Below are positions 3,545 through 52,399 of a stretch of 64,000 nt of DNA, one piece after another. This DNA is from Hysterangium stoloniferum. Taxonomy: Eukaryota > Basidiomycota > Agaricomycetes > Hysterangiales > Hysterangiaceae. A program made the translations under genes and the position numbers. The first letter of the stretch is position 1. Every line of letters starts with the position of its first letter. The notes beneath the pieces were generated by a model that worked only from the letters and a program-made list of their open reading frames with translations, ran no database searches and was not told where the DNA came from. The stretch covers positions 806,001-870,000 of the forward strand of contig WHVD01000017.1 of the NCBI GenBank assembly GCA_015178975.1, in the 5' to 3' direction.

Positions 3545-4428
3545 CTCGATGGAAGCTCAAGGAATGATTGCAAGCATAGAAGACACCGGTCCATTCAAGG
3601 AGACGCAAAGTCCATCCCTGATGCGTACGATGAAGCACCCACGACAATTGTCTGCTGGTTGAGAATTGATTTAAGGATGCAAGGACAAGGAGTTGGATCA
3701 AAGATGACGAAAAACATCTCTGGCGAGTTGCGTATGGGTCGAAGCCTGGCATGTCTCTCGAAGAGCACAAGGCAGAAGCCCAACAACGCATTCTCCACTT
3801 GTTGCCGGATAGAAGTATTGGATACAAGGTCGTACATATTAGCCCGTCCAAAATACACCAACGACGCGCTACACAGCTGCGTGCAGGAAGAGTATTGCTA
3901 ATTGGAGATGCGGACCATTCAAATAATTCTATTGATAAGGGAAAAGAGCTTCAGCGATCTATTTGCTTTCTGATGAGAGAGTAGGTGGTCTAAGACTCAC
4001 TGCGGGTCTTCTGGACGCCGGTACTGGGCCGAGCATTGTCAGCAGTACTACAGGGACGAGCCTCCGAATCCCTACTCGATAAATGGGCAACGTTGGGCCA
4101 TAAAGCCTTCTCAGAATATACGAATCCACAATCTATCGAAAGTAAAAGCAGTGTGCAAAGAGGTGTTATAGTGAGGATCCCGCTGACATTTGGACCCATG
4201 GTGCAATCGCAGAAGTCCATGGCATGACCAAGTGGCTACAAAAGGCGACTCCTGAGGCCAAAGAGCGTGACAGGGCCGTGTTCCACTTAATGGCCGACAA
4301 GTCAATTCACGGAGCATTACTGAGCACCTGCGATACTGCATTGGCCGTGGATTGGATGGCTGAATACAAATCGAAGGAGACGTTGACTGCTAGACGCGCG
4401 ATGAGACCCAGTTACAGTGAGGCTTGAT
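3545..4428 (+). pseudogene. FAD-dependent aromatic-type monooxygenase, C-terminal half, decayed
   Basis: Family knowledge: FAD_binding_3-type hydroxylases carry a GRVLLIGDAAH motif (ribose-binding DG/GD motif) followed by a GG-GLTGGLLDA helix and a C-terminal tail. Here GRVLLIGDADHSNN (about 3886-3925) is followed by GGLRLTAGLLDAG (about 3987-4020), then in another frame LSAVLQGRASESLLDKWATL, then in a third frame YSEDPADIW..HGMTKWLQKATPEAKERDRAVFHL, ending at a stop near 4426. At least two frameshifts and a short disruption between the motifs make it non-functional. The N-terminal Rossmann GxGxxG was not found. Fragments 3190-3490 could be earlier exons, but this is uncertain. Substrate unknown. 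Confidence 0.72.
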
Positions 4429-5626
4429 ACTTCCAAAATCATGATATGCGTATGCGTAAGGTTACAATTGAACGCGTGACTTTATAACACAGGGACTAAA
4501 GGAATGATGTACCCCTTTCAGGCAGCAGAGGACTAACAGTCATCGGGCAGCAGTCGACGTTGACTTTGACGAGCTTCACAGCTCTGTCAATAAACTGGTG
4601 TAGTATTTCCACGCAACTGAAAGTAAAAATTAGTTTTCAGTTGGCTGGATGTAGGTTAAATTTTAAGTGTTCTTTTTGTTACAATATACACAAGCTATTT
4701 AGTACAAGATAAAGACAACGGGAAAAAGGCAAAAAGAGCAGATAAAAGAGGTATGAGGGGCTCCTTGGGCTAAACAAAATAGTACATCTCGTCAGTAGTA
4801 CATCGTCCGTTCTTCGAGGTATAAACTGCAAGCGTTCTGAAGTCAACTGCGTCCAGATAGTCTAGTCTGTACAAAGGTCAATCACGGATAGAATAAAGCA
4901 CGATGGCTTCTCTCACAAAATAATCCTAGAGCAGATCATCCGGAACCGATAGAGGAATGATACTGAATGGTAAATAAGTTGGTTGGACACAATGGCTAAC
5001 GGCTAAGTATAAACGAGAGTTCGTGACAGTGAATTGAGGGACCAACAACTCACACTTTTGTCGCTTGCAAGGAATTAATATCCGTTCTGACTGGTATATA
5101 AGGATGTGAACGATTTGAACTGTCTTAGGAATGACCTCTAGTCTGTAACAATAAGCGGTGTTAGAGACAGTGATATAAAGAAATATTACTGTACATACAC
5201 CAGTCATTACGGATTGATCCATCGTTATTCGTTTCACGACACTCCATGGATCCAGGACGTCTGGGAGAAAGTGGCCAGCAAACCTCATAATCAACAAAGT
5301 GTGTTGGAAGAGTGGAATCAGGGCTTACATCTGCACATCCAGTCGTACATCCTCATCGTAGCCCGTACCGTCTCACAACACAGGATCATAAACGATCTGA
5401 CTTACTGACTTCTTAGACACCAAGCTGTGCAATGGAGGTTAACGACGTAGGTGGGAGTTACGATGGAAGCGACGGGCTTACTATATCCTCAAACACGAAA
5501 ATTAGCCTTCACAGCCCCACCTCAAAATAAGAAAGGGACGGAATAAGATGCACACATTAAAAATGAAGAAAGAAAGACAGAGAGAGAGAGAAGAGAAGAG
5601 AAAACTGAGAAGGATAGGGAACTCCT
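4429..5626. other. No confident gene; possible spliced fragment on minus strand 4926-5300
   Basis: A minus-strand open stretch (5297-4926) contains a plausible short intron (donor GTATGT near 5197, acceptor TTACAG near 5150) and a downstream GTGAGT, so parts may be exons. The translation matches no family I know. A purine-rich GA tract lies at about 5568-5605, just downstream of the membrane-protein gene. Confidence 0.25.
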
Positions 5627-20037: not shown

Positions 20038-21041
20038 CTGATCCCCCACATATAGAAATTCAAATTCACCATCATCTTTCTCAAACTGACTCCAATTTAT
20101 CTCACCCATGTATCATTTCTTTTCAATGTCTTAGTACCTTTCCAAAAGAGAAGACCATTATCACCTACTCATAATACATTGAAAAAAAAGCACTTTATTA
20201 GCAATTCATCTAATCCACCACCACCTCTAGCTCTGGGGTCAATTGCTACTGCTTTGCCAGCAATGATGAGATCTTATTACTGTGCAACAAACGAGGACAT
20301 CAATTTGGGAGAAACGTGTCCGAACAGATATCGTCATTCGTGGGACCTCACAGTATGACATCTACCTATCTTTCACAACAAACACCTGCCATTCTATATC
20401 TTCTGTGTAAACTGCCCGATCTCTAGCCCAAGCAGCCACTCCCATTCCACAAAGGACATGCAAGACCCAGCCAAATCCACCCCTTCTTCGTTTGTTTCTT
20501 GGAACGCGACCTTGATCTTAACTTTGATGGTCTTCCATTCTCGGCAAGGATGACGTGATGGCGTAAGGATGGCGACGCGACTGGCATGGATGTATCAAAT
20601 GTAGAAGAAACACGTTGAGTATCATCATCCAATCGAACCCTCACTTTTCGACGGTCGTTCATGCTCCTTCACCAAGACGCGATGTTCAATATACCCAATA
20701 AACCCACCTCACACACATCGAGCTTCTTACCTGTCGCCCCACCTCCTTCGCTCTGGGAATCGTTATCCCAAACAGCCGCCCCCCGTTCGCTCTTCAGCCA
20801 GGGGACGTACAAACACAACCAGGACCGAGCCCGCCCCCGAGGTGAAAGAAGCGTGTGATGAGACTGGCTCTCGCCACATACATAGGAAAGAGAGGGAAGC
20901 GATGTAGAAATGCGAACGGCCATCCCGTGCTGCGCGGTGGGGCGTAGCCGGGGTCGGCCCCCGCCTGTTACGGGATTTGCCCGCGCGGGCGGTAAATGTC
21001 GCCGGATATAGAAACTTATTGATTGAAAAACAACGAAACAA

Positions 21042-21428
21042 CACCTGTAGTACCCATGCACCCATATCTAGTTAGGCGCAGAACACTAGCGCTGCTCGCC
21101 TTATAGTTAGATAGGATAGCCGTTGTCTCCCTCTCCCAGAAATAATACCGTTTTATAATTCTGTCTTGAATGAAAATTTTTTTTTTTCCCTCACGTATTC
21201 CTATGGACTCACAAAGCTATTATCAGACATGACAGCTGCCCCCACAACACGTCCACAAACACCCTGTACTTTCGGCAACACTCCCGCACTTAGCGCGCGC
21301 GTTCTGTTCGAGCTCATCGTTGGCGACATTGTCAAAATCACTTCACCAACTCTTCTTTGTCTAACCCTTTCTTTTGTGCTATATAGATTTCTATGGCTAA
21401 ATCACGATTGCATATCTCTCGGAAGGTA
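21042..21428 (+). repeat. Left terminal inverted repeat of the KDZ element
   Basis: It includes the promoter region and the first ~12 codons of the transposase. It is nearly identical to the reverse complement of 27753-28140. Confidence 0.9.
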
Positions 21429-24400
21429 AAGGGTACTATGGTCAATAGAAATCAGCGTAACATGTCTGTTGCTGCCACTGTCGTCCATGGTCCAAATAAA
21501 ATTATGCAAGCACGCCGGGAGAGACTTGCCAGAAGAGCTGCATTACTTTCAAGTAAGTTCTCTGTTCTTTTTTATTGCATTTTAATTAACTGCCGTAGAT
21601 TCTACATCCACAGATCGTAAGGCTATACAGGACATGGCGAATTCCATACCCGGAAACTCTCAGAACGATCATTGGGAAGTATCTGAGGACCAGTATAGTT
21701 GGCGAGATCTGCGGCCTGAAGAGCAAGATGATGCCAGCTGGAACTCAATCCATACTCAGGAGTTTAATGCAATCACACAGGACGTTTATGAGAATTATGC
21801 CAATTTGAATCACCCTTCGTAAGTTGTATAAAATATTTCTCAACTTTGCTGATGCATTTATATACAGGTCTCATGTTGATCATCGTACACGACGTGACCA
21901 TATCGAAAAGGCAAACAAGGAATGGGAAGTTCTGTACCCTGATCTCACCAGGGCATTTCTAGAATGGGACTTCAAAGGACCTCCAACAGAACATGACACA
22001 TTGCAGCATGCACCAATAATGGTGCATGATGTTTTCTGTACGTCATCCACTACTCTTTCATTATTATCTTGGTTTTAATATATTCTTAGCATCGCAGTTC
22101 AGAACATTCCCTATCGATCCTAATCATGGTATAACGGTCACAATGATGCGACATGGCTACATAGGCAATGCACCTCTTCATCCATCCCGCACATTTTCCA
22201 TCCAGCTCCTTCGATTATATCGCACATTAGCCAACCGTACACCTCAATTGAGTATAATCAAGTTTGCACGCAGTCTTTGTGACCTTCAGTTGGTATATGC
22301 ATCTAAGCCAATGAAGAAACATCATGAATGCTAACAGATATTTTCTCTAGGTTTCCTTCCCTCCTTCTATGCGTGCACAACTCTCTGCAAGTCATGATGT
22401 GTATGTTGAAATCCAGACACGCATATCATGTGATATTCAAAATCAATTGGGGCATGAGGACAATTGGCAGCTTCGGAATGCATGTCCACCATGTACATAT
22501 GTTCTTGAAGATGAACCACCACTCAAGTACTCCATCCAAGCCACATTTGATGGGAATAATTCTCTCAAGTGTATCCCAAAATCTCTGTGTGAAAAGGATA
22601 GCACAGGCAAAGTCGTCTCTATTGAATCACTTGAGCGGCCTGATGGACGCCAGCGTATCAATGGTTTCTACCTGACACCAGGAGAAGTTGATAAGTTCAG
22701 TTCAGAGGTAAAACGCAGATTACCCAAGGTAAATATTACAGTAAGTGTGTTCCACTCATGGGATACTTGGTTTTGACTCGTCTTAGCCTGAAATACTTAC
22801 TGAAGGTGGCCAACCAACTGATGGTGTTGACAAGTCCAATCCATGTGTTGAACGCTGGAAAAATCTCACTGATGATGCTGTCAAAAAGATGTGGGGAATC
22901 TTTGATGAGACTGGGATATTCTTGGCAGTCTGTCGTCATGGTACTGCACTACTCATGTGTGACATGATCAAGAGTGGGGAATTGTGAGTCCACATGTTAT
23001 ATTTGATTCATGATGTTACCATTCCAAAACAGAGCAAAGTACCCCCTTGCTATTGTTAACAAGTTAATTGACGTTTTTGGTGTAAACCTGCTACTAGGGT
23101 ATGACATCGGCTGTGGGTTTTCAGTCACGGCAAACAAAAGTGCACTTGTTGGTCCCAAGGTAAGGTCTTCGGGCTGTCGGTTCTGTGTGGGATCTTTCCA
23201 TGGCCATGCACATTGCCGTTTATGCCAACTTGACTGGCATCCATTATATGTGGAAGGGTGTGGTCTAGAAGACTTTGAGGGTTGTGAGCGGGCATTTGCT
23301 GAGTCAAATGCTGTGGCAGGGCCTACTCGCCATGCTTCAAAATTCCACAGAAAGCAGGCCATATTATTGCATTTTGAACGATGGAATGCTGATAAGTATG
23401 CAGAACTCAGTAAGTCCTATCATTATTTTATCTAGTATTTTATCTAATTTCTGAATCTTTTATTAAAGGTAAATTTATCTGCAATAACTATCGACAGACA
23501 CTTAAATTGCTTGCTGAATTGCCACCAAAACTAGAGGCTATGAAGATTGCCTTGAACATACCATCAGACACAACATTCATAGAGTGGCATAATGAAGAAA
23601 AGGAATATCTGAGAGGAATCAAGCAGGAACCGGAAACAAACAAACTTAGGTATGAGTACTTGAGCACACTTCGTAAGTTGCATGAAGCCATGTGAGTAAC
23701 AAACTTTGATTGCATGCTTTTACTAATATTACCATGTAGTGACAGATATGCAGCTGTTACACAACAGTGGCATATAACCTCTCTCTCAGATCTCGAATGT
23801 GACAACTTACATACACGAGGTATTGAAACCTCATGGGTCAAGGGCCTAGACTCGGTATTGACTCTCCAGGGTGCTGTGGAGGATCTTGAAGGAAAATTAG
23901 GGATTGGGAGACGGTGGACACCAGAATCTGCAGAATGGAAACTCACTGAAGAAAAGCTGGCAATGAGGGAGTATCAGCTTGCACTAAATAAGCTTGAGGG
24001 ATTGGTTGTTTCACAACTATTTGAGCTTACTAAGTTGAATCAGTCTGGGATTGGTGAGTATTTTTATTTCTTTGCATCTCATGATTCATTATTATTCTTC
24101 AACAGGTGTAAAATTACGCACTCAGATTGCAAAAGGATTGAAGGCTCGTTCACAAGCAATTCGAACAGCAGTCAATAATTATAATACTGCTGCTGCCTGT
24201 TTCTCACCCCCTCGTGATCCATTGGACATAACACAGGTACTCGACTATGTTTTTATTGCTCAGTTTGACCTTCTACCAGATGGATCTCAAGATATCTTCC
24301 ACAAGCCCTGGATCAAAGCAGCTGAATGTGAAGCAAGCATAGCATATTTTAAAATCCAGTGGGCCCATGAGGAAATCCAAAGGCTCAATATTGAAATCTC

Positions 24401-24746
24401 ACGTCTTAAGACATTTATATGTGATGAAAAACATGAGTTAGGTGTGCATGTTCCAAACCTGAATATGGAAAACCCAGCACTAGCCTATCAGCTCCACAAA
24501 ATACTTTTACATCGGAAGGCAATCAATACCATTCACTACCGACGTCTTCGGGATCTGCAGTCATTAAAAGGATATTCAGGTGGGAAGGGTATTGGTATCA
24601 GGAAAGGGAAGATTACAGAAGATGGAATAGAGGAAGAAAAGCAGTGGTCTTCATATTCTGAAAGTGACTTTGGAGATTCAAGTGATAATGAACCATCATG
24701 TAATGCTGTGGATGCTACAATTCATGTCATCTCATTAGATGATTAA
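21393..24746 (+). CDS. KDZ transposase (Kyakuja-Dileera-Zisupton), 955 aa
   Basis: Ten exons: 21393-21552, 21614-21818, 21868-22037, 22090-22292, 22351-22728, 22787-22983, 23033-23409, 23469-23691, 23740-24053 and 24106-24746. Every intron is GT-AG and 48-61 bp, and phases close exactly to 955 codons. Family signatures: an N-terminal Cys pair CPPC (~291-294), DGNNSLK (~313), NPCVERWKN, FDETGIFLAVCRHG (~411-424), LGYDIGC (~459-465), HCRLCQLDWHP (~498-508), EGCGLEDFEGCER (~512-524) and RHASKFHRKQAI. Conserved Asp/Glu at ~313, ~462 and ~517-523 are candidate catalytic residues of the RNase H-like fold (inference). The acidic Ser-rich C-terminal tail is typical. No stop or frameshift, so it may be active. 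Confidence 0.93.
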
Positions 24747-25126
24747 ATAATACATATCTCAGAGATTTCAAAATACAAAAAAATTAAAGTTAATAGCATG
24801 TTATAGTTATATGGGATACAAGTTATCTCTTGTTAAATCTTTGAATGATCCTAGTGGGGACACTGTCATGAATAACCACCACTTGCAACCTCACAATCCT
24901 TTAAATTTGCGACCAGCCTTTCTGTCTCCTTTTTCACAACCTAAGGTATGATATCTACATATCTCATCCACAGTCTTCATTCAATGGAGATTTATGGGTT
25001 CCCAGTATATTTTACACGTTGTACATTACAGTATTACAGTTGCTTAGTAATCTTAACACTCCGTTCACATCTATCATACACTAGGATATACCCAACTCCT
25101 CCCCTCTTTGCATCAACATCCACACC

Positions 25127-26522
25127 ATGTCTGCCCTGAGTGAAAACACCTCTCACCATGTAAACACTGTTTTGGACATATCTCAGCCCTCCCATTCTCG
25201 CATAGACAATCTCGCCAAGCACCAGCGAAATACAGTAGCCCAGCGCAATGCCAACAAACAGAAGGCCATGTGGCACGATATTAAAGCTGAATGGGAGAGG
25301 CAAGAGGATGCTGCTGTGACCCTGGCTCAGAAGCATGGACAAAAAGTGGAGTGGATGCGCATTCGACTTCAGAGATTGCCTGAGTATGGAAAAACACGTA
25401 AGATCAACACATGGAATGCATTTATACATGTTAGATCAATGGATCTCAATCAATGTATGGAATGTATTCACTTTATTTCAACTTATATCTGATCAGAGGG
25501 GTCAGATCTGCCAGTGGGTGAAAAACTGCGACTTACAGAGCTAGTGAAGCTGGCAAATAGCACAAATGAGTATGAAAATCTACCAAAAGACAAAATCGAC
25601 GCTATGATGGCATGTTTGCAGGAGGCACGTCAACGAGATGCAACTGGGAGCCGCTCACAGCCAAAGGCCATACGGCAGGATGTACATCAAACATCAAAGC
25701 ATGTCCACAAAGAGGTGAGTTGGAGTTACAGTATGCATGGTTAATTATTGAGTTACCTTTAGCTCATGACATTAGGAAGCCGTTGCAGGACATCATCTAT
25801 GGCAATCACGGTGCAAACATCTGGGGAAGGAAGCTCACCACTCTACTATATGGATCCTGCAGCTCGCCAGTTTGTGGAAATTGTACTGGGGATGGATGTT
25901 GACACCTTTTGTCTGAAGTTTGAGTCATTTGCAATCCTAGGACTTCAAAGTAAGTGTAATACACGCAAACCAAAATTAAAAAACTCACTTTCCAACAGAG
26001 TTTGTAAAGAATGACAATGATCGTAGATCTCTGCAAAAGTCTCAAATTCGAAGTACAGTGCGAGACAGGCTACGTACGCTTTGATTTCACTATTCTTGGC
26101 TATAGACTGACCTTTATACAGGTAAGATTACCGGTGAAGATGGGCTGAATATGGAATGGACTGCATACGAAGATCTAATCATCGACAAGTATCATGTGAT
26201 TTTAGATGGTTGGCCAAAGGACATTGTATTCAACCCAGCTGATCTGGGAACAAAGTCTTTGGCCATGGTTATAGCTGCACTTGAAGACGGAACATGTAAT
26301 TGGAAGAAATTGACTGAGGAGAGCTATATCAAGTATGTTCAGGAACGTGAAAGGAAGATACAGGCAGGAGAGGTCCACATACCAAAATGTAAGAGGCGCA
26401 GTGATGCTGGACAGAAACGTGGACCATACAAACGTCAAAGGGGAGAGGCCAGGTGTGTCTCAAATGTGAGACCTGAGGAAGAGTCAGATGACGATGGGAA
26501 GTTGGTGGTGTCAGGTCAGTAA
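25127..26522 (+). CDS. KDZ-element accessory protein, 383 aa, unknown function
   Basis: Five exons: 25127-25397, 25497-25714, 25763-25949, 25999-26073 and 26122-26522. Introns are GT-AG and phases close exactly. The N-terminus is basic and Gln/Asn-rich (HQRNTVAQRNANKQ). The middle has an acidic helix (EKLRLTELVKLANS). The C-terminal half contains EWTAYEDLIIDKYHVILDGWP..IVFNPADLG and WKKLTEE, then a basic, nuclear-signal-like KCKRRSDAGQKRGPYKRQRGE and an acidic end. The W-x-x-Y..GWP..F region resembles hypothetical proteins I associate with basidiomycete transposons, but no biochemical role is known to me. It lies 380 bp downstream of the transposase in the same orientation, inside the inverted repeats. 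Confidence 0.85.
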
Positions 26523-26744
26523 ACCAGCTGAAGCAAGATACAGTAAAATCCAAAGCTAAACAAGAACACAGAGGTGCAGGAGGGGTAAAATCGACATAGA
26601 CGAACACAGGTTGCAAGTGGCACTGGTCACTGGGCCCTTACATGGCTTTATTTGCACAAACACTAAAGTAGATTAAAAGTCTACATATATTCTTTAACTA
26701 ATACAAATATTCGTAATATGGTTTTTGAAAAAATGGTGTCAAAT

Positions 26745-26925
26745 GGAATAGAATTGGCGAAATGCTTTTGATGATGTCACCAATGATGAGCTCAAACAGA
26801 ACATGAGCGCCAAGTGCTGGAGTGTTGCCAAACGTATAGAGTGTTTGTGGATGTGTTGTGGGGGCAGCTGTCATGTCTGAAAATAGCTTTTAGTGATTAC
26901 ATAGGAGTAGGCAGAAAACCGTAGG
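26745..26925 (-). repeat. Degenerate second copy of the KDZ terminal repeat
   Basis: Reverse complement of about 21195-21345 with many CpG-to-TpG/CpA changes (for example the CpG-rich run near 21295 is decayed here). It lies just after the accessory gene, so it is probably the original right terminus of an older element. Confidence 0.8.
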
Positions 26926-26936
26926 CAGAAAACCTA

Positions 26937-27304
26937 GAGAAAATATCTATTAGCATTCATGTTTCTTGATTGGCTTAGGTGCGTATACCAACTGAAGGTC
27001 ACAAAGACTGTGTGCGAACTTGATTATACTCAATTGAGGAGTACAGTTGGCTAATGTGCGATATAGTCGAAGGAGCTGGATGGAAAATGTGTGGGATGGA
27101 TGAAGAGGTGCATTGCCTATGTAGCTGTGTCGCATCTTTGTGAACATTATACCATGATTAGGATCAATAAGGAATATTCTGAACTGCGCTGCTAAGAGTA
27201 TATTAAAACCTAGATAATAATGAAAGAGTAGCAGATGACGTACAGAAAACATCATGCACCATTATTGGTGCATGCTGCAATGTGACGTATTCTGTTGGAG
27301 GTCC
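26937..27304 (-). pseudogene. Inverted KDZ transposase fragment (exons 3-4)
   Basis: The minus strand reproduces the end of exon 3, intron 3, exon 4 and intron 4 of the transposase (PNHGI..MRH.YIGNAPLHPS.TFSIQLLRLYRTLAN.TPQLSIIKFA.SLCDLQL). It is clearly a different copy, with point changes. It joins GA-rich repeats instead of exon 2. Confidence 0.9.
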
Positions 27305-27344
27305 TCAAAGGAGGAGGGAGAGGGAAGGAAAGTGTAAGACGCAC

Positions 27345-27745
27345 CAACTGGAGGAAAGAGACAAGAGGACGATCAGAAAAGCACAAAGAGAAAGGACAGG
27401 GTACACGCACTCGCTGGAGGAAAGAGAGCGGAGTCCGGTTAGAAAAGGACCATGAGAGAAGGAGAGGGTAGACACACGCTGGAAGGAGAAAGGAGGCCGA
27501 TCAGAGGGGGGGAAAGAGAGGAAAGGATACATGCACAGCCTGGAGGAAAGGAGTGAGGCGATGAGAGGATGATGAAGAAAGGACGGAGTAGACAGACCAA
27601 CTGGAGGAAAGGGAGAGGAGATCAATGAGAAGAGGACGAAGAGAGATGGAATAGATACATGCACAGTCTGGAGGAAAGAGAGGAGGTCGATCAGAAGAGG
27701 AGGAAGAAAGAAGGAAAGGTAGACGGACCAACTGGAGGGAGACCA
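27345..27745. repeat. GA-rich minisatellite, ~6-7 units of 60-68 bp
   Basis: Each unit starts CTGGAGGAAAG, is purine-rich on the plus strand and ends GATACATGCACAG or GTAGACGGACCAA in apparently alternating types. It lies subterminally, between the transposase fragment and the right terminal repeat. Long open frames on the minus strand are by-products of the composition. Confidence 0.85.
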
Positions 27746-27752
27746 TAGAACC

Positions 27753-28140
27753 CTACCTTCCGAGAGATATGCAATCGTGATTTAGCCATAGAAATCTATA
27801 TAGCACAAAAGAAAGGGTTAGACAAAGAAGAGTTGGTGAAGTGATTTTGACAATGTCGCCGACGATGAGCTCGAACAGAACGCGCGCGCTAAGTGCTGGA
27901 GTGTTGCCGAAAGTACAGGGTGTTTGTGGACGTGTTGTGGGGGCAGCTGTCATGTCTGATAATAGCTTTGTGAGTCCATAGGAATACGCGAGGGAAAAAT
28001 TTTTTTTTTTATTCAAGACAGAATTATAAAACGGTATTATTTCCGGGAGAGGGAGACAACGGCTATCCTATCTAACTATAAGGCGAGCAGCGCTAGTGTT
28101 CTGCGCCTAACTAGATATGGGTGCGTGGGTACTACAGGTG
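27753..28140 (-). repeat. Right terminal inverted repeat of the KDZ element
   Basis: Near-exact reverse complement of 21042-21428, including the transposase start codon context and codons 1-12. It therefore carries a second copy of the transposase promoter facing inward. Confidence 0.9.
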
Positions 28141-28405
28141 GGCAAAATACCTTATACATTCAAATTAGTTCGGAACTCAAGGGTCTATGCGGCAAGCTAA
28201 TTAGGTTACAAATAGAAGATACGCATGTGAATTGCCGACCCTTAGCTTAAACGAAGAATGAAATATGAATAATCAAAAAAAGAGTACAAAGAGTTTGACA
28301 GGTGTCTTTGGGGAAGGTTCAAAGCACCTATCTTTTACACCCACTTGACTCACATTCGTATCATGGACCTCTGGAGAATAATGGACCATCAGACCCACTC
28401 TCGGA

Positions 28406-30124
28406 ATGATGTCGAGTGTGTATTTTCCATTTCACTTCCACTGTACTCAAGATCGGATCACTAACGGCACGGTTGATTGTGACCGCCAGGTCTTCAAATG
28501 CTCGAAGTCCAAGGGACCCGGATGGAGTGGGGGATGCAGGCAGTCAGACGTACGAGGCTTCATATCACATATTGTCCAGCATTTTTAGCATACTCAATCA
28601 TTGTTTATTCGTAGATTGGAGGAGGGACGTGCGGTTTTTGGGGAGGCATCCAGGCACGGATTTCCGCATGCTGCGATGATGCAATCAAGAGATCGACGAC
28701 TTGCCGTCGTCTCAGGAAGCGCGGGGACGTCCATCTTGAACGACTCGTCCTTCCCCGCTTCGTTCACACGCGATCCCAGCGGGCCATTCCCGCCGCCACA
28801 CGTGAATGAGTTTGAGTACAGAAATAGGTGACATTGCAATCTTTCGGGAAAACATCCACGTTAACTTGAAATATTTCTTTCCTGACATCCTTTTAGCCAT
28901 CGCTCACAACGATCTGACAGGCATTATTCCACGGCGATGCCTGTGTACCCAGACCCGCGGGCACCATCAGGTCTGTTCCGTGCTCATTACACTCAATTTC
29001 TGTTAAACATTTGCAAAACGAAATATATTAGAATTTGTACATTACAGACATGTCGACCGTCAGCGCAGGTCCGCGAACTTCGAAATGACGTAAGTTCCTT
29101 TCCTACAATTAATTATGTTTATTGACGAGAATACAGCATCCCCAATGAGTATCATGGGGACTATTCCCACACTCGTAGGCTAGAGGTTGTGGTCCCTACG
29201 TTGTGTACTTCGGGGCGTTTCAAAGAGCCCTTGGAAGGAAATGTTTTCGCACATGAGGGGAGTTTAAAACGGTAAGGATTGTTGTGTTTGCATAAATAAA
29301 TATATGCTGAACTAACAAGTCTATTATCAAACTCATGTCTCTGCCCCAGCTCCCCTCACGATCAAATTCTAGAACATGCCCGATCCATGGCGTCGAAGTC
29401 CGGCACCATGGAATATGATTCGTGTAGAGAGATGGTGAGGGAGCCGGAGGAGGTATCCTCCAATCTGTCCACGCTTACACGGCGCCCATCTATCCCACCT
29501 ACCCGCCCAACCGAGCCTGAGAGTAGCAGGGAGCATACTACCCTGCTCCCCCGTGCTTTCAAGGTGAGCGCATCCCTCAAGGCCGCCGCAGCGAACACAG
29601 TATTTCCTACGCCATGCGGGGAAAACACCAACGTCGCCGACTTTGTGACGTTCATTACGGCCGCTGATCCACAGGCGGTCCCAATTAAATGCAAGTTGTG
29701 TGAGCAGCGTATAGCCAGGAAAGACTCGCTCGTTCAGCATTGGATTAGCGTGCATGCCTTTGCAGACTTGCAAGTCGCGCTCATGTATCCCCATGAAGAC
29801 CACAGCGACTTGGTTATAAATACAACACAGAGGCGGGATATCCTGCTGGCTGCCCTGTATACCTGTCCCTTGAAGGGGTGTCGGGGTTTATCAACGGTTC
29901 GTGTGTATGTAACGAAGGGCGATCTACTGAGGCACGTACGCCGCCACTATGGACCTCTCGACGAAGCTTCCGGGGAGGAGAACACACGCGATACTGATGT
30001 AGAGCTAGAGCAAATGCGGGAGCAGGTTACAAATTACCTGAATAATCATACCTTCTGGCTCCCGGTGGACCGTACTCATTTCACCTCTCGGAACTACAAG
30101 CTGGCCTGGCTGCTCAATCAGTAG
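28406..30124 (+). CDS. C2H2 zinc-finger protein, about 479 aa
   Basis: Exons: 28406-28549, 28589-28827, 28897-29001, 29048-29089, 29137-29271 and 29350-30124. Phases close to 480 codons. Fingers: CKLC..HWISVH (C-x2-C-x12-H-x4-H, ~336-357) and CPLKGC..LLRHVRRH (~394-421), suggesting a nucleic-acid-binding nuclear protein. A Cys/His-rich segment (CSKSKGPGW..GGC..) lies near the N-terminus. The first intron would be only 39 bp. Without it, the same frame continues through one TAG at 28586-28588, so this is either an unusually short intron or a nonsense mutation. The start is also uncertain. The gene sits between the KDZ element and repeat R. Confidence 0.68.
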
Positions 30125-51492: not shown

Positions 51493-52399
51493 TGTTAGGA
51501 TACACACAGGCCGGGTTTCCAGAGAAACCCGCGGGATATCCGGTAGGACTTGGCTTCAGCTTATAGGCTGCGCCCTTGCTAGATGATGTTGTCCAATTTC
51601 AAACGGACGGACAGGGATCCCAGGAAGTCCGGGCGGGGTTCGTGGGTCGTAGGTCATAAGTCAGGGGTCGTGGGTCGTAAGTTGGAGGTCGTGGGTCATG
51701 AGTCGAGATAGTTGAGAGAGATAGATGTGCCGGAGCCCGTGGGCTCTGACTAGTGCGAGCGATGTGAATTAAGTAAGGTTTTAGAGTGGAAAATGTTATT
51801 AGATTACTGGGGGGAATCTAAGCTAATTTTCTGACTGGATTGTATGTACAACATCTGCCAGTTTATATAGACCGTGGAATGCATGACATACCAAATCCAG
51901 TAATGATGAAACGAAACTAACAAAACATGAAACGGGAATAGTAAACACCAAATTGGTGAACGGAACGGAACGGAACGGAACGGAACGGAACGGAACGGAA
52001 CGGAACGGAACGGAACGGAACGGAATGGAATGGAACGGAACGGAATGGAGTGGAGTCCGAATTGTGACAAAGCATAACCCATAACGGGAAATGGAGCGGG
52101 AGTGGAGTCCTAAATCGTGACAGGTCATTTGACTAAAACGGGAACGGGGCTCGATTAGAGCAGTGACGGGATTCTAAGTGGGGACCGGTGACTGGTGTGT
52201 GGGACGAAGATGGACATAGACAGAGACGGAGTCCGGGGAAGTCCGGTGACTGATATGTGTCGTAATGAGGTCGAACGTAACGAGTCTTGACATAACGGAG
52301 TCCGGGCGGGAAATCCTATAAACAGACGATTGGTGCTTGTAGCATGTGGGGGCGTACAGGTTAGTGCCTGGAGTCTGGCGGGATTGTCCGGTCATAACA
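51493..52399 (-). mobile_element. Solo LTR, Gypsy family B, reverse, 907 bp
   Basis: TGTTAGGATAC..GGTCATAACA with target duplication CTGAT at 51488-51492 and 52400-52404. It is longer than its sisters because of a CGGAA microsatellite expansion. It lies between the antisense ORF and the polypurine tract of the host Gypsy element. Confidence 0.95.
51957..52050. repeat. CGGAA pentanucleotide microsatellite
   Basis: Twelve perfect CGGAA units at 51961-52020, followed by about six units with CGGAA/TGGAA/TGGAG variants. Sister LTRs have only 2-4 imperfect units at the matching place (GGAACGGGACGGAACGGAGTGG in reverse near 53013), so this is an expansion inside the LTR. Confidence 0.97.

Follow-up and report, generated by a model that had tools for sequence, protein, structure and literature searches.

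A two-gene KDZ transposon in the window

The DNA analysed here, referred to as the window, is a stretch of 64,000 nucleotides from Hysterangium stoloniferum (C79:806001-870000, C79 being the window's own contig), and the genome searched for relatives comprised 111 Mb in 554 contigs. Its short GT-AG introns and its many KDZ and Plavaka genes would be in keeping with a basidiomycete. At window positions 21042-28140, a two-gene DNA transposon of the KDZ superfamily (Kyakuja-Dileera-Zisupton, PF18758) was found, in which a transposase gene is followed by a second ('GWP') gene, and the possible role of this second gene is the subject of the analysis. The element is bounded by two inverted arms of exactly 387 nt, which are 97% complementary and have their outer ends at 21042 and 28140. 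The left terminal inverted repeat (TIR; 21042-21428, forward strand) starts with the terminus CACCTGTAGTACCC and holds the start codon of the transposase (21393), while its partner on the right occupies 27754-28140 on the reverse strand. Three other full copies, 98% identical, were found (C176, C512, and C367), and their ends were identical to those of the window copy.

The transposase gene (21393-24746, forward strand) consists of 10 exons (21393-21552, 21599-21818, 21868-22037, 22090-22292, 22351-22740, 22787-22983, 23033-23409, 23469-23691, 23740-24053, and 24106-24746), with nine GT-AG introns, 46-59 nt each, across which the frame closes in phase. The 10 exons, the open frame, and the short canonical introns agreed with the earlier note on this DNA, but the product has 964 amino acids rather than the 955 codons given there. 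Residues 312-565 matched PF18758 with an E value of 7.1e-75 (251.9 bits against a cut-off of 26.6). Moreover, D318, D471, and E532, which we take to be the acidic DDE residues of the catalytic triad, were conserved in 9/9, 11/11, and 10/11 of the fetched loci showing each position. A match to CxC1 was weak and below the cut-off (20.6 bits against 26.9, E 5e-4), and covered only profile positions 50-93.

The second gene (25127-26522, forward strand) has five exons (25127-25454, 25506-25714, 25763-25949, 25999-26073, and 26122-26522) and encodes a basic protein of 399 amino acids with a computed isoelectric point of 9.2. The earlier note was right on a real gene of five exons, but it had misplaced intron 1 and thereby arrived at 383 codons, a length that two among 15 listed in-phase models have. 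The placement at 25455-25505 is supported by the donor GTATGG, present at that position in all three 98% copies, and by four diverged relatives (C90, C517, C420, and C128), in which an intron of the same phase begins, as judged by eye, four bases past the Asn codon of NA-x(9)-N. The position of intron 1 is thus identical in five lineages. As the GT of the donor at 25398, the one used in the earlier note, is kept in all copies, the 98% copies alone were insufficient to decide; this donor was excluded because the coding stretch is conserved in the four other lineages.

Homologues of the second gene were found along its whole length, and relatives at 28-64% amino-acid identity matched the frames of the element; thus, the gene frames exceed what chance would give. 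Searches of prokaryotic and viral contigs gave 37 and 10 pattern stretches, respectively, of which none was confirmed; these collections have no bearing on other fungi. The conserved parts of the second protein are an N-terminal helical-looking region, the stretch NA-x(9)-N with LP.G after it, and, at the C-terminus, a GWP domain with a basic tail. In an alignment of eight sequences, the domain encoded by exon 5 (26122-26522, forward strand) was the best conserved, with the motifs ..Y..L.GWP..F.P..L..AL..G.C.W and the basic tail KCKRRSDAGQKRGPYKRQR, and 27 matches to this exon were found in the genome. Proteins with NAF, GWP, and RSDAGKKR stretches are presumably common in mushroom genomes, which guided the search.

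The right part of the element carries further inverted copies of the left. The inner part of the left arm, covering transposase exons 3-4 (21976-22360, forward strand), has an inverted copy at 26924-27305 (reverse strand; 92-93% identity, in pairs of 347 nt at 93% and 38 nt at 92%), and a partial TIR copy at 26750-26890 (reverse strand) matches 21213-21353 over 141 nt at 86%. Between these two inner copies and the outer TIR, the right subterminal region holds GA-rich tandem repeats (27323-27742, forward strand; units of approximately 65 bp), whose core CTGGAGGAAA occurs five times in the window copy and eight times in the C176 copy; the repeat region of the window copy is 256 bp shorter than that of the other copies. 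At 26907-26934, a 14-bp unit, GTAGGCAGAAAACC, is present in two copies, with three in the C176 element.

Similar ends were found in diverged relatives. The right ends of the C227 and C128 elements also carry an inverted copy of transposase residues 131-250, and the C227 element has a near-continuous TIR of approximately 1.4 kb, with arms 87-98% complementary, extending into the transposase gene. On the simplest reading of these sequences, elements of this group would have long TIRs that extend over the 5' part of the transposase gene, and the window family would have them in partly rebuilt form. Both the window and the C90 element, whose transposase cores are only 47% identical, have the terminus CACCTGT and carry the octamer CTAGTTAG 26-27 bases inside.

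In the case of target-site duplications (TSDs), perfect 8-bp examples flank the C512 (ACAGTAGT), C367 (CAATATCC), C90 (GCCTGTCG), and C39 (TTATTGTG) elements, whereas an 8-bp duplication is absent around the window and C176 copies and none that was clean was found for C227. The C39 element (C39:191059-193707) is a 2.65-kb non-autonomous relative with outer arms of 164 nt and further inner inverted arms, and the genome searches gave no second-gene or KDZ match on it. As it has inverted arms and a perfect TSD, gene-less derivatives have moved as well.

The transposase domain, the long exon-rich gene, the TIRs, and the 8-bp TSDs of the relatives are all features of the KDZ superfamily. In fungi, accessory genes are said to be frequent in KDZ elements (PMC12477816, in the part available); in the window element, however, the accessory gene is not TET/JBP and falls below all Pfam and NCBIfam cut-offs. 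According to the accessible text of Kojima 2025 (PMC12730594), Kyakuja elements have 7-bp TSDs and no TIRs, while Zisupton elements have 8-bp TSDs. The window element resembles Kyakuja elements with TET/JBP in combining a KDZ transposase with a second gene and in its CA..TG termini, as far as these are described there, but its family differs in having 387-bp TIRs and 8-bp TSDs. With Zisupton-like elements it has TIRs in common (387 nt, 97%); the 8-bp TSD of that type is perfect in four relatives, absent from the window copy and C176, and not clean in C227. The closest described architecture found was that of Cryptococcus KDZ1, with a KDZ transposase, 241-bp TIRs, and 8-bp TSDs; as presented in the sections available (PMC12810828), that element is approximately 11 kb long, has a CxC1 domain, and is not mentioned to have a GWP-type second gene, while the CxC1 match in the window stays below the cut-off. 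In Pleurotus, a CxC2 region precedes intact KDZ elements, according to the part of the report at hand (PMC7641404).

Association of the second gene with KDZ transposases

Second-gene loci were collected by genome searches with four family members, and merging the pieces gave 34 loci. KDZ pieces were collapsed by hand to 43 loci, and in the case of Plavaka transposases, 55 starts were kept from 68 pieces. As only the best candidates were scored, the locus and linkage counts are lower bounds. Eighteen of the 34 second-gene loci lay within 10 kb of a KDZ locus, compared with 0.27 expected under uniform placement. In these, the second gene was located downstream in the same direction (13 loci) or divergently (5 loci), and never otherwise. 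No second-gene locus (0/34) lay within 10 kb of a Plavaka start, the nearest being at 10.2 and 11.7 kb.

All 16 unlinked loci matched the DNA of KDZ-linked second-gene loci at 78-97%. At least six of them (C553, C533, C527, C223, C334, and C201) have kept terminal-repeat sequence, and transposase remnants lie upstream of the second gene at C553:91266; for the other ten, the label of remnant is based on the second gene and its adjoining DNA. Furthermore, the TIRs enclose both genes in C227, and in C90 the two genes lie inside CACCTGT-ended TIRs flanked by the TSD GCCTGTCG. The earlier note had asked whether homologues co-occur with KDZ transposases inside inverted repeats or are never linked to them. 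In the window's own genome, co-occurrence was borne out, since more than half of the loci were within 10 kb of a KDZ locus and two subfamilies had both genes within their TIRs. Within the same genome, the relatives of the second gene either adjoin KDZ transposases or resemble the remains of such elements, and the gene is therefore probably a dedicated helper rather than a passenger carried by accident. The earlier description of a basic protein with GWP in place of TET/JBP held for the protein, for which, as for the transposase, no Tet_JBP was among the Pfam matches, but not as a peculiarity of the window element, because the gene is common to several KDZ subfamilies.

Between the subfamilies, the transposase cores are 32-63% identical. 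By transposase core, the window and C227 elements are the closest pair (63%), but by the second gene (31%) they are not, and fast evolution or re-pairing of the second gene is therefore possible. In other subfamily pairs, the second gene was conserved about as well as the transposase.

Possible roles of the second protein

Because the second gene has been retained in a fixed order with several diverged transposases, a role in the life of the element is argued. As the protein is basic, has a tail resembling a nuclear localisation signal, and has no enzyme motif, a DNA-binding co-factor of transposition fits best, and a probability of about 0.5 was assigned to it. The window element would then belong, as a single copy, to a cut-and-paste KDZ family with two genes, long inverted ends, and 8-bp target duplications, in which the transposase would cut and join the element ends. 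The second gene would encode a basic, apparently nuclear protein that regularly accompanies the transposase in several KDZ subfamilies. With its basic tail and its conserved C-terminal domain, the protein may hold terminal or subterminal DNA of the element, by which it would help the transposase to assemble or to find the ends. To the two genes inside TIRs, the 8-bp TSDs of relatives, the linkage, the conserved order, and the family of diverged relatives, this proposal adds DNA binding, a nuclear location, and a direct part in transposition, all three as suppositions.

Such a division of labour has parallels, as En/Spm and MuDR are two-protein DNA transposons, and both the Myb-like second protein of Harbinger and TnpA of En/Spm are thought to help the transposase handle the ends. 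The likeness to Harbinger/Nuwa, En/Spm, and MuDR is one of working only, in that a transposase and a second protein are both encoded between the ends; the transposases belong to another superfamily, and no Myb/SANT or known DNA-binding domain was found in the second protein. The pairing of a transposase with a Myb/SANT protein in Harbinger/Nuwa is described in the available portion of PMC12730594.

Several results weigh against a DNA-binding co-factor. The second protein reached no Pfam cut-off and had no NCBIfam match, and no DNA-binding domain was recognised. Its best Pfam match was DUF6940 (E 0.0016, 19.1 against 27 bits), which was judged to be chance, as were the weak matches in PHROGs (E 0.013 and 0.044) and PDB (best E 0.0051, LRRTM) and further weak Pfam matches. 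A high-mobility-group (HMG) box was considered on account of the stretch NAF..L..L...EY.NL, which is alike by eye; the hhalign score was 10.4, with 10.3 for a homeodomain and 8.3 for Myb as controls, and this reading was dropped because 30 of 100 column shuffles scored as high. The AlphaFold2 single-sequence fold of exon 5 alone was unusable, with a mean predicted local distance difference test score of 38. Moreover, when the distances of the transposase and the second gene were compared over six lineages, with the C527 relative standing in for the C517 second gene, no correlation was found (Mantel r -0.21; 509 of 720 permutations were as high). Within the family, the ratio of nonsynonymous to synonymous changes (dN/dS) of the second gene was 0.7-0.9, indicating little purifying selection, although the changes are few and decay after insertion is mixed in. 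Finally, 25 of the 43 KDZ loci had no detected partner within 10 kb, and the second gene may therefore be dispensable or have been missed at those loci.

The main rival, ranked ahead of a passenger or a repressor, is an anti-silencing factor: the second protein would bind element DNA and block or remove host methylation, like TET/JBP on other KDZ elements or VANC on Arabidopsis VANDAL. This was considered rather improbable. The element family shows the mark of CpG methylation: among changes private to one of the four copies, 95/163 were C-to-T or G-to-A at CpG, while CpG sites make up 360 of the 3159 C/G positions. On these sequences, the bias is read as that of methylated, decaying repeats, and in the window copy it was seen in 19 of 42 private changes. 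However, the copies appear methylated and have decayed despite carrying the second gene, and no enzyme or chromatin domain was recognised in its product. A TET/JBP search of the genome, run without a working positive control and therefore not showing absence, gave no matches, as the reading would have it. VANC systems reportedly evolve fast, and the second gene likewise looks faster-evolving than the transposase in the closest subfamily pair, but in the other pairs it is about as conserved as the transposase. The comparison with VANDAL/VANC, as described in the accessible part of PMC10398659, concerns a possible functional analogy, a transposon-encoded DNA-binding factor in methylated elements; superfamily and host differ.

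Less probable again is a gene that an ancestral KDZ element captured on one occasion and that has been carried along since, either useless to transposition or as a brake on it. The near-neutral dN/dS, the KDZ loci without a detected second gene, and the missing co-divergence of the two genes would all suit such a passenger or repressor. Against this, the second gene has been kept in a fixed order with diverged subfamilies and with intron 1 at an unchanged position in five lineages, and unused cargo should have been lost over that divergence. A chance neighbourhood of two multicopy genes in repeat-rich DNA was given practically no weight and is already refuted by the excess of linkage over expectation, by the use of only two of the four possible arrangements, by the lack of linkage to Plavaka, which is also multicopy, and by the C90 element, in which both genes lie within TIRs and a TSD.

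Beyond the co-factor itself, a wider proposal is put forward tentatively, and is more doubtful than the co-factor role. In this fungal lineage, most TIR-type KDZ transposons might have the family of the second protein, for which Pfam has no model, as their standard second component. The family might act as a fast-evolving, sequence-specific DNA-binding partner for terminal or subterminal repeats (for example, CTAGTTAG near the tips or the GA-rich repeats), be required either for transposition or, where TET/JBP is lacking, for escape from CpG methylation, and have been re-paired repeatedly with diverging transposases.

KDZ transposons are large, and their mechanism is poorly understood; in the literature, as far as its available text goes, the accessory gene discussed is TET/JBP. 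No description of the second gene was found in the accessible parts of the KDZ literature; the 2014 paper naming KDZ may describe it. An additional accessory family, linked in a single genome to several KDZ subfamilies, provides a defined pair of proteins and ends with known duplications. With these, it can be asked whether KDZ transposition needs two proteins and how the elements cope with CpG methylation. Even if the co-factor role fails, a multicopy fungal 'hypothetical protein' is recognised as part of a transposon, which is useful for annotation.

State of the copies, insertion site, and neighbouring repeats

The earlier note had considered the window element apparently intact. The frames are indeed open, but the copy carries private missense changes and an in-frame deletion and has no TSD. 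The transposase frame, open in the window, has three stops in C176 and one in C367, and exon insertions of 517 and 307 bp in C512; the second-gene frame is interrupted only in C512, by two stops, and is open in the window, C176, and C367. Compared with all three other copies, the window transposase has an in-frame 18-nt deletion and 11 differing residues, and the second protein has four. At transposase residue 583, the window copy departs from the Ala present in all eight diverged loci showing the position. On its sequence, the window copy appears partly decayed, and its activity is doubtful.

At the right junction (28140/28141), the flanks at 21041 and 28141 are approximately 166 bp apart in paralogous target repeats. 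The paralogous repeats join the two flanks through approximately 166 bp (C512) or 172 bp (C79:710 kb); in two more paralogs (C26 and C79:673 kb), the intervening DNA is present and part of the right-flank edge is missing. As the paralogs join the flanks through such a segment, target DNA directly adjoining one terminus has been lost from the window copy. This loss would be accounted for by a deletion during aberrant transposition; alternatively, the element may have inserted into a repeat already without that segment. An exchange with C176 was also considered for the missing TSD, but the flanking octamers do not fit by eye, and the paralogous target repeats give the better account. The flanks themselves (20242-21041 and 28141-28940) are repeated many times on C79 and also on C35, C112, C541, C334, and others, and by this repetition the element appears to be inserted into a large repeat family.

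The TIR had 48 matches in the genome, several of them without the two genes. At C101:150163-150508 and C22:233578-233923, a 353-bp piece of it is located close to a Plavaka transposase of that contig, with an offset of 2410 bp in both, and similar pieces are found on C388, C13, and C131. The arrangement looks like that of a KDZ end inserted into a Plavaka element and later multiplied along with it. Within the transposase gene of the C227 element, a satellite (positions 3880-5081 of the fetched stretch) is composed of 22- and 17-bp units in approximately 47 and 16 copies. It lies between the stretches matching transposase residues 646 and 675, where a gap of about this size is present in the C128 copy, and is possibly an expanded intron.

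Beside the element, at 29300-30124, a 274-amino-acid open frame contains a C2H2-like stretch (CKLCEQ..QHWISVH), a zinc finger by eye. In 4-kb blocks of the window, the observed/expected CpG ratio is 0.25-0.35 at 32-44 kb and 0.9-1.0 at 28-32 kb and beyond 56 kb, which suggests blocks of methylated repeats beside undepleted DNA. A GAACG pentanucleotide array of 18.4 copies with 96% matches is located at 51958-52049.

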